From: Fistulifera solaris | Lineage: Eukaryota; Bacillariophyta; Bacillariophyceae; Naviculales; Stauroneidaceae | Reading direction: 5' to 3' | DNA: 64,000 nucleotides | Assembly: GCA_030295235.1 (NCBI GenBank) | Contig: AP026127.1 | Location: 374,501-438,500, forward strand | Shown here: in pieces, positions 1,658 through 31,243 of the stretch | Layout of the letters: each line of letters starts with the position of its first letter | Position numbering within the stretch: position 1 is the first letter of the stretch | Position numbers and translations under genes: made by a program | Notes under the pieces: model-generated | Database searches by the model: none | The model's input: only the letters and a program-made list of their open reading frames with translations | What the model was told of the DNA's origin: nothing

Positions 1658-1927
1658 TCCTTCTGTTTGTAATTCCTATGGTGCTATATAAGTTGTCGAA
1701 TGAAATTATTCCGTTTTAATGAAGCGTATGAACAATGTATTGAAGTACCTGGTAATTGGGTCTATGATGTTCGAACGAATATAAGCGACGAAAAAATGCG
1801 CAAGAACAAAAGGGACGGAGGGGAGGGATGAGCATTCGATAGGGATAAAGGATAGCTCTGAATCTCGCTCCACTCGTGACGCAAGACTCCTCCTCAAGCC
1901 CGAGACCCGAGACCCGAGACGGTACAG
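1658..1927. other. Intergenic, between DnaJ start and the tandem array
   Basis: Upstream region of the DnaJ gene. It includes one copy of the word tacctggta (near 1748) that recurs in other intergenic regions of the window. No gene seen. Confidence 0.4.
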
Positions 1928-3179
1928 TACAGCCTCCCGTACATTTATACCACTTCTACGTCTTTCTACGTCTCGCTATACCAATTTGGTATGTTTTTCC
2001 AGAAATACTCGAAGTAGTTTCTGCGCTAATCTACTACTTTCCGGATAGTTCGGTGAGTATTTTTGGAAAAATATACCGCCAGGGTATAGCGGATGAAGAA
2101 ATACCAGTGCCGTTTCGAAAAGTACCACTATGGCGTGAAATGTAGGAAATTCGTGGGAATTCTTCAATCACTAGTAATACGTCTGCCGCATTTTCCTTGA
2201 CGAGCACAAAAATGAGCCATCACGAAGAAAGAAAACCATGAGAAAACCGACAAGTCGCCGCGGCAAGAACATCTACGCTAACATAAAGTCGTCCTTCGTC
2301 GCGAAAGATCCCACTGCTTCGCACTATCGTGATTGTGATGCATCTATACGATCTGCAGTGAAGTGGCTTTCGTGAGATTGTCGTAAGAATTCGATCGCCG
2401 AACCTTTTGCTGAAAAAGATATTGAATGAGAAAAGGCTCCCCAAAAAGTTTTTGCTTCAGAGATATCACTTCCTAAAAATACGCAGCAAAGCAAAATGTT
2501 GTTAGTACAATGCGTTTAAGCAGTGTAAAACAGTTTCTACGTGACATGAGGCGACTTTGATCGATCATCAGAACGAACGAAACAATTAAAACAGATCTAC
2601 GCAGGCTCGTGGAACTTCAGAACCACAATTTTGTGTGCCTTCCAGTATTTAAACTCTTCTCGAGAAATCGCACGAAGGTGGCAGTCGGGCACTTTTCCTT
2701 ACTCCAGATAGAGCTAAATGGTATTCTCGATAAAATCTTTTCAATAAGGAGGTGGTAACGTGTTTAGCATTCACTCACAGCGCTCTAGATGATCTTCTTT
2801 AGAATTTTTATTCTAGCTTAAGCATCTAACGACTGCCTTGTTTCAAGAATTTTCGGTGATGTAGTCGTCATGACATTTTATAAAAATTGGAGGTATAATT
2901 AAAGCGCACAAACGAGTTGAACGGTGGCCTTCAGACTTTAGATGTCGACATAGGCTTTGCCTAATCTTATGGAGTTACGATGCTATCGGCTTTTAGGGTC
3001 TAGCCTTTAAGAGACGGCCTAGACTAATGTTCATTCATCCTTATTATTTCTAGTGTGTAGGCATCGTTAGGGTTTCGGTTAAAAATCGTTTCGGTTGCAG
3101 TACAACCAAGTGCGTAGAAAATGCGTAGGAAATCCTATACCAACCGGCACTGCTTCTGGTATATTTTTCCTGCTCATTA
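1928..3179. repeat. Tandem unit, copy 1
   Basis: First 1252-bp unit. It lacks a handful of bases present in copies 2 and 3 and is the most divergent of the three. It carries the internal fold-back at 1974-2091. Confidence 0.9.
1974..2091. repeat. Fold-back (inverted repeat) in unit 1
   Basis: Arms of 37 bp at 1974-2010 and 2055-2091 match at 30 of 37 positions in inverted orientation. Both arms share CGCTATACC, GGTAT, TTTTTCCA and AAATACTC in the same order. The 44-base loop contains a second short stem (GAAGTAG against CTACTTTC). The same structure sits at the same place in each unit, so a transcript would form a long hairpin. It resembles a MITE or a hairpin RNA precursor, but no family is recognised. 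Confidence 0.8.
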
Positions 3180-4441
3180 TACAGCCTCCCGTACATTTAT
3201 ACCACTTCTACGTCTTTCTACGTCTCGCTATACCAATTTGGTATGTTTTTCCAGAAATACTCGAAGTAGTTTCTGCGCTAATCTACTACTTTCCGGATAG
3301 TTCGGTGAGTATTTTTGGAAAAATATACCGCCAGGGTATAGCGGATGAAGAAATACCAGTGCCGTTTCGAAAAGTACCACTATGGCGTGAAATGTAGGAA
3401 ATTCGTGGGAATTCTTCAATCACTAGTAATACGTCTGCCGCGATTTTCCTTGACGAGCACAAAAATGAGCCATCACGAAGAAAGAAAACCATGAGAAAAC
3501 CGACAAGTCGTCGCGGCAAGAACATCTACGCTAACATAAAGTCGTCCTTCGTCGCGAAAGATCCCACTGCTTCGCACTATCGTGATTGTGATGCATCTAT
3601 ACGATCTGCAGTGAAGTGGCTTTCAGAGATTGTCGTAAGAATTCCGATCGCCGAACCTTTTGCTGAAAAAGATATTGAATGAGAAAAGGCTCCCCAAAAA
3701 GTTTTTGCTTCAGAGATATCACTTCCTAAAAATACGCAGCAAAGCAAAATGTTGTTAGTACAATGCGTTTAAGCAGTGTAAAACAGTTTCTACGTGACAT
3801 GAGGCTTTACTTTGATCGATCATCAGAACGAACGAAACAATTAAAACAGATCTACGCAGGCTCGTGGAACTTCAGAACCACAATTTTGTGTGCCTTCCAG
3901 TATTTAAACTCTTCTCAGAAATCGTACGAAGGTGGCAGTCGGGCACTTTTCCTTACTCCAGATAGAGCTAAATGGTATTCTCGACAAAATCTTTTCAATA
4001 AGGAGGTGGTAACGTGTTTAGCATTCACTCACAGCGCTCTAGATGATCTTCTTTAGAATTTTTATTCTAGCTTAAGCATCTAACGACTGCCTTGTTTCAA
4101 GAATTTTCGGTGATGTAGTCGCTTTTCGTCATGACATTTTATAAAAATTGGAGGTATAATTAAAGCACAAACGAGTTGAACGGTGGCCTTCAGACTTTAG
4201 ATGTCGACATAGGCTTTGCCTAATCTTATGGAGTTACGATGCTATCGGCTTTTAGGGTCTAGCCTTTAAGAGACGACAGCCTAGACTAATGTTCATTCAT
4301 CCTTATTATTTCTAGTGTGTAGGCATCGTTAGGGTTTCGGTTAAAAATCGTTTCGGTTGCAGTACAACCAAGTGCGTAGAAAATGCGTAGGAAATCCTAT
4401 ACCAACCGGCACTGCTTCTGGTATATTTTTCCTGCTCATTA
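3180..4441. repeat. Tandem unit, copy 2
   Basis: Second unit, 1262 bp, the longest of the three. Two short plus-strand frames (3491-3682 and 3763-4056) are open here. The second is broken in copies 1 and 3, so neither looks maintained as a protein. Confidence 0.9.
3226..3343. repeat. Fold-back in unit 2
   Basis: Same 37-bp imperfect inverted arms and 44-base loop as in unit 1, shifted by 1252 bp, with no change seen in the arms. Confidence 0.8.
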
Positions 4442-5696
4442 TACAGCCTCCCGTACATTTATACCACTTCTACGTCTTTCTACGTCTCGCTATACCAATT
4501 TGGTATGTTTTTCCAGAAATACTCGAAGTAGTTTCTGCGCTAATCTACTACTTTCCGGATAGTTCGGTGAGTATTTTTGGAAAAATATACCGCCAGGGTA
4601 TAGCGGATGAAGAAATACCAGTGCCGTTTCGAAAAGTACCACTATGGCGTGAAATGTAGGAAATTCGTGGGAATTCTTCAATCACTAGTAATACGTCTGC
4701 CGCGATTTTCCTTGACGAGCACAAAAATGAGCCATCACGAAGAAAGAAAACCATGAGAAAACCGACAAGTCGTCGCGGCAAGAACATCTACGCTAACATA
4801 AAGTCGTCCTTCGTCGCGAAAGATCCCACTGCTTCGCACTATCGTGATTGTGATGCATCTATACGATCTGCAGTGAAGTGGCTTTCGAGATTGTCGGTAA
4901 GAATTCCGATCGCCGAACCTTTTGCTGAAAAAGATATTGAATGAGAAAAGGCTCCCCAAAAGTTTTTGCTTCAGAGATATCACTTCCTAAAAATACGCAG
5001 CAAAGCAAAATGTTGTTAGTACAATGCGTTTAAGCAGTGTAAAACAGTTTCTACGTGACATGAGGCGAGTACTTTGATCGATCATCAGAACGAACGAAAC
5101 AATTAAAACAGATCTACGCAGGCTCGTGGAACTTCAGAACCACAATTTTGTGTGCCTTCCAGTATTTAAACTCTTCTCGAGAAATCGCACGAAGGTGGCA
5201 GTCGGGCACTTTTCCTTACTCCAGATAGAGCTAAATGGTATTCTCGATAAAATCTTTTCAATAAGGAGGTGGTAACGTGTTTAGCATTCACTCACAGCGC
5301 TCTAGATGATCTTCTTTAGAATTTTTATTCTAGCTTAAGCATCTAACGACTGCCTTGTTTCAAGAATTTTCGGTGATGTAGTCGTCATGACATTTTATAA
5401 AAATTGGAGGTATAATTAAAGCACAAACGAGTTGAACGGTGGCCTTCAGACTTTAGATGTCGACATAGGCTTTGCCTAATCTTATGGAGTTACGATGCTA
5501 TCGGCTTTTAGGGTCTAGCCTTTAAGAGACGACGCCCTAGACTAATGTTCATTCATCCTTATTATTTCTAGTGTGTAGGCATCGTTAGGGTTTCGGTTAA
5601 AATCGTTTCGGTTGCAGTACAACCAAGTGCGTAGAAAATGCGTAGGAAATCCTATACCAACCGGCACTGCTTCTGGTATATTTTTCCTGCTCATTA
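4442..5696. repeat. Tandem unit, copy 3
   Basis: Third unit, 1255 bp. After its last base the closing TACAG leads into unrelated sequence (tatgaccttacc), which marks the right border of the array. Confidence 0.9.
4488..4605. repeat. Fold-back in unit 3
   Basis: Same inverted arms and loop as in units 1 and 2, shifted by 2514 bp from the first. The arms are identical to those of the other copies. Confidence 0.8.
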
Positions 5697-5701
5697 TACA
5701 G

Positions 5702-6045
5702 TATGACCTTACCAGTACGGTACCTGGTATGGACGCGTAAAAAAGCATTTACTGACACCAAGAAATTTCCACTATTGGTTTTATTGTACCTTTCTGTTTG
5801 GGCTGTGACACCGGTCATCGGTCATCGTAAAAGTGCAGCGGCACTTAAATCTGTACATAAAGATTCATTGTTGAAGAAGCCGGGGAAATTTTGCTTTTTT
5901 ACCCCAAATTCTCTCGTTTGAAACACCAACAAAACATTAGAACCCACGCCACATCCCTCCTTTTATCAATCTTTCGCACTTCCCTCGCAACAACACCGAC
6001 GAAAACGCTCATTCACTTCCTTCCTTGCCCCACAAACTCTTTTCA
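5702..6045. other. Intergenic, upstream of the 6.0 kb gene
   Basis: Unique sequence between the tandem array and the next start codon. It begins with another tacctggta-type word near 5720. A pyrimidine-rich stretch just before 6046 looks like a 5' leader. No gene seen. Confidence 0.4.
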
Positions 6046-6663
6046 ATGACACCGTTTCTATCCGAAGCCATGGAATCTCCACGTTCGTCAGGGCATCGTG
6101 TAACATTCAACAACACGGTGAAGTCATGCATCGTGGAACGAATCACCATCATATTGGACCGCGACGAAGTATGGTATTCTTCGCAAGAATGCCAGTCCAT
6201 GAGGAGGCAATGTGAGCAGATTGCTAACTTGGTTAGAGCTGGTGGAAGTTTTCGAGAATCGGAGAGTAATACCACCCGTGGTCTCGAAGGCATGCTGGCT
6301 GAAGATCAATTACGGCGGAGATATTCGGTGAAATACGCAGTTAGTGAAGAATTATACCGTCAGCGACTAAACGATGAATACGATCCGGATGGTGTAGCAG
6401 AAGCGTCTTTAGAAGTTTCCAGAGAGTCAGTGGAAGATGCTATAAGAAAAGCGGAGGGCGATGCCGAAGCGGCTGCTCAATGGATAGAACAAGTGACACA
6501 AAGAGAAGAGGCCGAAGCCGCCGCAACGGCTCGGCGGAAATTCCGTGGAAATAGCTCGATATTGAATATCAAGTCGAAATCTCCCTTTCGAAGGGCAAAG
6601 CTGGTCGAACTATCGAAGGCCGCGAACCCTTTCCGGAAAATGAAGTTAAAAATGGATGAGTAG
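6046..6663 (+). CDS. Hypothetical protein, WYS/GLE motif family
   Basis: A 205-residue protein beginning at the first ATG of this frame (6046). An N-terminal block contains VKSCIVERITIILDRDEVWY followed by SSQECQSMRRQ, then TTRGLEGM and RRRYSV. This order of an aromatic WYS/WYT, a GLE and an RR resembles a group of uncharacterised stramenopile proteins that I recall but cannot name. The C-terminal half is charged and helical, with Ala- and Glu-rich stretches (likely coiled coil), and it ends in a basic tail. No signal peptide or membrane span is seen. Function unknown. Confidence 0.7.
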   Translation: MTPFLSEAMESPRSSGHRVTFNNTVKSCIVERITIILDRDEVWYSSQECQSMRRQCEQIANLVRAGGSFRESESNTTRGLEGMLAEDQLRRRYSVKYAVSEELYRQRLNDEYDPDGVAEASLEVSRESVEDAIRKAEGDAEAAAQWIEQVTQREEAEAAATARRKFRGNSSILNIKSKSPFRRAKLVELSKAANPFRKMKLKMDE

Positions 6664-13277: not shown

Positions 13278-13910
13278 AGCAACGTGAAAATACAACTGGT
13301 CCGGATTTTCCGGAGACGTGTAAGTACCACACGCCCAGATTTCCTAGGAACGTGAAAAGTGCAAATACCACTCACCCAGATTTTCTGGGAACGTGAAAAT
13401 ACATTGGTCCAGATTTTCTGGACTACTTGAAAATGCCAAACTCCCAGATTTTCAGGTAACGTGAAAATACATTGGTCCAGATTTTCTGGAGCAGCGTAAA
13501 TATTACAACCCAGATTTCCTGGGAACCTGAAAATACAGCTGGTCCAGATTTTCTGGACCACGTGTAAATATCACTCTCCCAGATTTCCTGAAAACTTGAA
13601 AATACATCTGGTCCAGATTTTTTGGACCATGTGTAAATATCACTCTTCCAGATTTCCTGGAAACTTAAAATACAGCTGGTCCAGATTGTCTGGACCAAAG
13701 TAAATGTTACACCCCCAGATTTCCTGGGAATGTGAAAATACCGCTGGTCCAGATTTTCTGGACTAACCTAAATATTACACCCCCAGATTTCCTGGGGATG
13801 TGAAAATACACTTGGTCCAGATTTTCTGGACCATTGTAAATACCACTCCCCCAGATTTCCTGGAAAGTTGAAAATACAGCTGGTCCAGATTTTCTGGACC
13901 CTAACGTGAA
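13278..13910. repeat. 68-bp minisatellite with alternating palindromes
   Basis: About nine copies of a 68-bp period; the GGTCC landmarks lie at 13406, 13474, 13541, 13610, 13678, 13746, 13814 and 13882, with a more diverged start at 13298. Each period contains two hairpin-forming words, GGTCCAGATTTTCTGGACC and CCCAGATTTCCTGGG, separated by AT-rich spacers with GTGAAAATAC. The array sits between the 5' ends of the divergent FNT and TFIIF-beta genes. Open frames read through it only because the period shifts phase, so it is not coding. Confidence 0.95.
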
Positions 13911-30518: not shown

Positions 30519-30582
30519 CTTTCCCGCTCTCTACTCTCTAGCCTCTAGAGCTACAAGTAGAGTGAGTTGCGAGAGCGAGAGC

Positions 30583-31243
30583 GAGAGACGCAAAACGGAA
30601 CCCTTTATTGTTCGGTTCATGACTCATGACTACTGTACAATTCAGTCTTGGCTGGCTGGCGTAAACTAACACTCCATCTCATAGTGGAAATTCAAGTGCC
30701 GATCCTCGGACTTTCGACATGAAAATAAAAAAAGCTCTTAACAAGTAGTTCAGAATCACCATTGTTGCGACTTTTTCTACCCGTAATTACAATCATATTC
30801 GCAGTTGAACGACAGTGGACGGATACGAGAGACGCAAAACGGAACCCTTTGTTGTTCGGTTCATGACTCATGACTACTGTACAATTCAGTCTTGGCTGGC
30901 TGGCGTAAACCAACACTCCATCTCATAGTGGAAATTCAAGTGCCGATCCTCGGATTTTCGACATGAAAATAAAAAAAAGCTCTTAACAAGTAGTTCGGAA
31001 TCACCATTGTTGCGACTTTTTCTACCCGTAATTACAATCATATTCGCAGTTGAATGACAATGGACGGATGCGAGAGACGCAAAACGGAACCCTTTGTTGT
31101 TCGGTTCATGACTCATGACTACTGTACAATTCAGTCTTGGCTGGCGTAAACCAACACTCCATCTCATAGTGGAAATTCAAGTGCCGATCCTCGGATTTTC
31201 GACATGAAAATAAAAGAAACTTTTAACAAGTAGTTCAGAATCA
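30583..31243. repeat. 245-bp tandem repeat, 2.7 copies
   Basis: Copies start at 30583, 30827 and 31072 (periods 244 and 245). The third stops after about 172 bp. Each opens gagagacgcaaaacggaacc and contains the doubled word catgactcatgact and taaac(t/c)aacactccatctc. Copies differ by a few bases only. No open frame is conserved. A weakly similar order of words is found at 48.3-48.65 kb. Confidence 0.92.

Follow-up and report, generated by a model that had tools for sequence, protein, structure and literature searches.

Organization of the Array

The window, which is the whole 64,000-nucleotide stretch of Fistulifera solaris DNA analyzed here, contains three abutting head-to-tail units at positions 1928-5696 (1928-3179, 3180-4441, and 4442-5696), closed by a TACAG at 5697-5701. 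The left neighbor of the array is a DnaJ-domain frame on the minus strand (695-1675), and its right neighbor is a 240-amino-acid frame (5941-6663) for which Pfam returned no match above cut-off. As described in the initial annotation, the array itself holds no recognizable gene. Among the frames listed, the longest stop-to-stop frame lying wholly within it is 108 amino acids, and none of the seven array frames tested reached the Pfam cut-off, the best being one weak match of 14.3 bits against a cut-off of 27. A search for structured RNAs returned only three weak rpsB matches, all under the gathering score, and a tRNA search of the window returned none. BLAST comparison of the units with the window listed no direct repeats inside a unit. 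Two other tandem arrays lie elsewhere in the window, one with a 68-bp unit in about eight copies (13318-13900) and one with a 245-bp unit in 2.7 copies with 95% matches (30581-31243).

The three element copies (W1, W2, and W3) lie in units with pairwise identities of 98.2, 98.5, and 98.7% over 1.25 kb, a likeness that is not due to chance because BLAST gives E = 0 at this length. Each copy carries private differences; thus, W1 to W3 are not one copy exactly repeated by the assembler. TACAG stands at 1928, 3180, 4442, and 5697, which are the two outer borders and the two joints. Both the near-identity of the units over more than 1.2 kb and the recurrence of the same five bases at borders and joints had been recorded in the initial annotation, and both are borne out. 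The coordinates of the individual features are collected in Table 1.

Table 1. Features of the tandem array and its units, in window coordinates.
Feature	Position	Strand	Remarks
Extra TACAG	1923..1927	+	Abuts the array on the left; part of the GTAC-rich left flank
Left border word TACAG	1928..1932	+	Read as target-derived
Element copy W1, CCTCCCG...CATTA	1933..3179	+	1247 bp
Joint 1, TACAG	3180..3184	+	
Element copy W2	3185..4441	+	1257 bp
Joint 2, TACAG	4442..4446	+	
Element copy W3	4447..5696	+	1250 bp
Right border word TACAG	5697..5701	+	Read as the element's own right end
5' subterminal hairpin, W2	3215..3353	+	54 pairs, z -6.7; W1 1963-2101, W3 4477-4615
13-mer GGTATATTTTTCC, 5' end of W2	3317..3329	-	W1 2065-2077, W3 4579-4591
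13-mer GGTATATTTTTCC, 3' end of W2	4420..4432	+	W1 3158-3170, W3 5675-5687
Weak 3' terminal inverted repeat/hairpin, W2	4382..4440	+	Energy z -1.3

A Dispersed Family in the Genome

The genome search covered 61 contigs with 51,715,745 bases (C1, C2, C6, and so on are contigs) and scored the best candidates only, which makes its copy counts lower bounds. One unit compared with the whole genome gave at least 18 matching pieces. A second array on C1 consists of two tandem copies (C1a and C1b), the second of which is split by an insert. C9 holds a single window-type copy, and C20, C6, and C2 hold one copy each of a second subfamily with 78-80% identity to the window unit. C33 carries one interrupted copy, and a remnant without ends lies at C1:2686794 with 68% identity. 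C8 and C22 retain 5' fragments only (element positions 1-84 and 1-81), downstream of which lie unrelated sequence or genes. When the C20 version served as the query, no site appeared beyond those already found.

The copies are a family at no fewer than ten sites, two of them arrays, and not a satellite. A classical satellite is confined to tandem arrays; here, single copies stand on C9, C20, C6, and C2. These copies agree with the initial annotation, in which the unit was considered too long and too cleanly bordered for an ordinary satellite. It was also anticipated there that a genome-wide search with one unit would reveal natural ends in a dispersed single-copy form, which the dispersed copies do show, and the clean borders hold, as does the diatom host assumed there.

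C1b and C33 were considered as long autonomous versions of the element and rejected. Their inserts hold frames that we take, from their motifs, to be copia-type polyproteins, and we therefore read the inserts as nested retrotransposon insertions, not as the coding part of a longer element. The C20 copy is flanked by an 80-100 bp repeat (C20:398682-398779) with dozens of genomic matches, many of them on both strands, in which it resembles a palindromic MITE.

Fistulifera is an allopolyploid, according to the available text of PMC12159174 and PMC5935921. A homoeologue of the array's right flank is found on C8 in pieces at 73-91% identity, and the element is absent there. The intergenic DNA of this homoeologue is too diverged for base-level alignment, so it offers no readable empty site. 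The homoeologue of the C9 copy, on C10, is not alignable at the insertion, and C19 matches the flanks of the C20 copy in a BLAST comparison only. Exact matches to either element end numbered zero in viral_contigs, and none of the phage records matched the unit. A description of the element was not found in the titles and abstract openings of a literature search that covered mostly papers free of subscription.

Element Ends and Subterminal Hairpins

The element has fixed ends, with CCTCCCG at the left and GGTATATTTTTCCTGCTCATTA plus TACAG at the right. The 3'-end pattern is matched exactly at nine places, no place matches it with one to three mismatches, and its backwards control has no match. 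The C2 copy has lost its 3' end. Besides the known sites, end patterns at up to three mismatches gave two 5' matches, both at three mismatches, and two in the backwards control. W2 and C20 differ at only 3 of the 148 columns in their end blocks (93 and 55 columns, with limits picked after viewing the alignment). In the middle, 850 of 1070 ungapped columns are identical (79.4%), with large indels. This conservation of the ends was equaled by 10 of 1446 circular shifts.

The two ends do not form an inverted repeat, and in this the element agrees with the absence of terminal inverted repeats in Cryptons. A 13-mer, GGTATATTTTTCC, lies near both ends in opposite orientation and is absent from the rest of the window. 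The 5' subterminal hairpin also forms in C20 (z -6.0) and is kept in both subfamilies. Specifically, 47 to 52 of its 54 pairs are still standard in the other subfamily, and the 2-3 broken pairs sit in a small side stem. Covariation was considered for this hairpin and rejected; outside the side stem, pairs are kept by one-sided changes, which indicates conservation and not covariation. At the other end of the element, the energy of the 3' hairpin is unremarkable, as 20 of 200 shuffles fold equally well.

The 5' hairpin is also a deletion hot spot. C1b lacks 31 bp of one arm, and deletion has removed 27 of its 54 pairs. In C33, positions of about 19-183 (counted from TACAG) are gone, and both 5' fragments, on C8 and C22, break off no more than a few bases from the hairpin loop.

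Differences between Copies

The three window copies show 14 variable runs, 10 of which include an indel. In pairwise comparisons, they differ at 6, 11, and 15 columns and by 8, 8, and 5 indel events, respectively, and part of the differing columns fall within the indel clusters. In the initial annotation, the differences were described as concentrated in short indel clusters instead of being spread as substitutions. The clustering stands, with an indel in 10 of 14 variable runs, although pair by pair the differing columns about equal or exceed the indel events.

Across six near-identical copies, 12 of 18 indel runs overlap CG where 4.0 are expected, and none of 5000 random placements reached 12. 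Substitution runs are free of this excess (1 of 12 overlap CG, with 1.5 expected). When a 3-base margin is allowed, the CG excess of the indel runs drops to 13 of 18 against 8.6 expected, a value reached by 2.7% of placements. Three places carry four or five different alleles across the six copies. The CG-linked indels could stem from long-read basecalling error at methylated CG or from real damage and repair. Such basecalling error may be the ordinary cause of the indel clusters noted earlier. The assembly of the related F. pelliculosa is labeled ONT in the reference list of PMC12159174, as far as the available text of that paper goes.

Derived states at columns 107, 861, and 1235 unite C1a with C1b, and one at column 1385 unites the window copies. 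Because each array has its own derived states, the C1 and window arrays formed or were homogenized separately. A 7-base duplication (292-298) and the state at column 823 are common to C1 and C9. The window copies give conflicting groupings: W2 goes with W3 at columns 260 and 1169, but W1 does so at columns 763 and 1120. This pattern suggests exchange between the window copies after the array had formed, unless some of the column differences are assembly errors.

Border Words and Insertion Sites

The border sample comprises only nine left and six right borders. The left word is TACAG at four of the nine sites (window, C1, C20, and C33) and TACCAG at another four (C6, C9, C2, and C8, the last with an extra G); at C22 it is neither. 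The right word is TACAG at all six sites (window, C1, C20, C6, C33, and C9), where C9 is counted on reading the ten bases before its TACAG as a later insertion. All three joints, two in the window and one on C1, are likewise TACAG. Left and right words are the same at four of the six two-ended sites and differ at two, C6 and C9, which have TACCAG at the left and TACAG at the right. The variation is confined to the left border and is independent of subfamily, with TACCAG adjoining the window-type copy on C9 and the C20-type copies on C6 and C2. The ten extra bases at the right border of the C9 copy (within C9:684500-688500) lie between CATTA and TACAG and, with their neighbors, form a 12-bp palindrome, TACTCCGGAGTA, which resembles the footprint of a TA-inserting transposon.

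The base directly after the right word is T at all six sites. The 40 bp to the left of the element contain at least two GTAC at six of nine sites (none at C1 and C22, one at C8), compared with 1.05% of the 40-mers in the rest of the window, and the border word itself often contributes one of the GTAC counted. At most sites, the element directly follows TAC(C)AG within GTAC-rich sequence. GGTACC occurs 10 times in the window against 5.8 expected, a count that is reached by 6 of 100 shuffles and is not decisive.

These borders are read to mean that the right TACAG belongs to the element and the left TAC(C)AG to the target. The initial annotation had proposed that one insertion with a 5-bp duplication was amplified. 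Insertion is retained in the reading favored below, but a simple 5-bp target duplication is unsupported because the left and right words differ at two of six sites and the variant is always on the left.

Proposed Mechanism and Alternatives

With moderate confidence, the unit is regarded as a mobile element, 1.25-1.4 kb long and non-autonomous, that has no terminal inverted repeats. It would be an element of circle type whose right end bears its own target-like word, so that copies stack. The element would travel as a putative circle with TACAG at the closed junction. A recombinase given in trans would cross the circle's TACAG with a matching chromosomal word, and no true duplication would result. 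After integration, the left word (TACAG or TACCAG) would come from the chromosomal target and the right one (TACAG) from the element. The terminal TACAG of an inserted copy would then serve as a fresh site at which more circles, or one multimeric circle, could dock. Repeated docking would line copies up head to tail with one TACAG at each joint, and copies within an array may later exchange sequence. Against the circle model, four of the six two-ended sites have identical words, as plain duplication would give, the left 40 bp of C1 are without GTAC, and the C22 fragment has neither border word.

The likeliest candidate for the engine is a Crypton-like tyrosine recombinase, an assignment that is tentative; an IS607-type serine recombinase and an HUH nuclease are lesser candidates. 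A PF00589 profile search of the genome, in which introns were not handled, gave no match, though all 14 controls matched. Profile searches with DUF3504 and with Helitron_like_N (Rep) also gave no match, but their controls were silent as well. Pfam models may miss the CryptonS recombinase group. A search with the end patterns at up to three mismatches for a longer two-ended partner element found none beyond the copies split by retrotransposon-like inserts.

The best-surviving alternative, itself unlikely, is a non-autonomous DDE cut-and-paste element that makes a sequence-specific 5-bp duplication of TACAG, with new copies inserting into the old duplicated word. It would account for TACAG on both sides at four of the six readable sites and for the inverted 13-mer near both ends. 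However, the same 5 bp do not stand on both sides of every copy, as C6 and C9 depart from this at two of six sites, and C2 and C8 also have TACCAG at the left. The same change at four of nine left ends and at no right end is unlike the decay of a duplication, and the very ends of the element are without terminal inverted repeats.

Rather improbable is an HUH rolling-circle or single-strand element, either Helitron-like or IS200/IS605-like, in which arrays would form by running past the right end. Such an element would have hairpins near its ends, insert after a fixed word, and make no target duplication. The strong 5' hairpin and weak 3' hairpin favor an HUH element, as do the words that differ at two of six sites and so leave no strict duplication. 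However, the energy of the 3' hairpin is unremarkable, the termini are unlike the TC and CTAG-type sequences of Helitrons, and the element does not sit between an A and a T. Helitrons are not known to target a word that equals their own right end. In the available text of PMC5876387, Helitrons are reported to form head-to-tail junctions and tandem arrays.

Similarly improbable is tandem duplication of an ordinary dispersed repeat through unequal exchange or replication slippage, with the shared word being incidental. The derived column 1385 shared by the window copies speaks for such an origin, and the conflicting groupings (260/1169 for W2 and W3, 763/1120 for W1 and W3) are expected from exchange between copies. 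However, exchange presupposes a first duplication, such a duplication arose at two loci with an identical joint, and the array ends equal those of single copies. Unequal exchange beginning at the word, which the initial annotation had offered as the other origin of the array, is unlikely because clean head-to-tail arrays with the same joint stand at two separate loci.

Serine recombinases use a 2-bp core. An IS607-like element crossing over at a core of AG in TAC(C)AG would be served by the AG common to TACAG and TACCAG borders and by the characters that IS607 elements share with the present one (see below), but it is very improbable, and arrays are not described for IS607 in the available text of PMC6188088.

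Implications

By what steps transposable elements give rise to satellite-like arrays is not settled. In this one genome, the element occurs as single copies, as a tandem pair, and as a tandem triplet, and both arrays have the same joint. The borders suggest a simple reason for the arrays, namely that the landing word is carried at one end of the element. If true, stacking by the circle-type element would show in a compact, testable form how a transposon can become a tandem repeat, and it would indicate that a site-specific recombinase is, or recently was, active in diatoms. A further proposal is improbable: that this is a new type of eukaryotic non-autonomous element whose right end copies its own target word, so that each insertion would make the favored site for the following one, with stacking as part of its normal life cycle and a recombinase class undescribed in diatoms.

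Comparison with Known Systems

Cassandra and other TRIM elements are small elements without coding domains that occur in short tandem arrays, and in this they resemble the present element (PMC7215508, available text). Their arrays, as presented there, alternate LTR and internal domain, whereas here whole units abut via 5 bp. No paired LTRs flanking an internal domain were seen in the unit, in which the 13-bp motif alone is repeated near the two ends.

IS607 elements are like this element in having no terminal inverted repeats, no target duplication, and short repeated motifs near their ends, as described in the portion of PMC6188088 at hand. Unlike in IS607, no gene is recognized in this element.

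Helitrons and Helentrons share with it a hairpin near an end, the lack of strict duplication, and tandem arrays. In the accessible text of PMC5876387, Helitrons start with TC, end with a tetranucleotide (CTAG in Helraiser), and insert between A and T. In contrast, the ends here are CCTCCC...TACAG, and insertion follows a different rule, not falling between A and T.

By analogy, Cryptons are the closest known kind, above all CryptonS, the tyrosine-recombinase DNA transposons of oomycetes and diatoms, together with non-autonomous Crypton derivatives. In the available part of PMC3212892, Cryptons have no inverted repeats, short terminal direct repeats, and a proposed circle intermediate. The direct repeats of the stramenopile group measure 5-6 bp there, Cryptons are known in the diatom Phaeodactylum, and the majority of CryptonS have TATGG termini. 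Membership is not established because no recombinase was found: the element, unlike CryptonS, is without a recognized recombinase gene, and the PF00589 search found none in the genome. The element also differs from the CryptonS described there in having TACAG in place of the majority TATGG, left and right words that sometimes differ (identical TACAG at four of six sites, TACCAG and TACAG at two), and head-to-tail arrays. It resembles them in its lack of terminal inverted repeats, its low copy number, and its stramenopile host, and the short words at its borders may correspond to their 5-6 bp terminal direct repeats.
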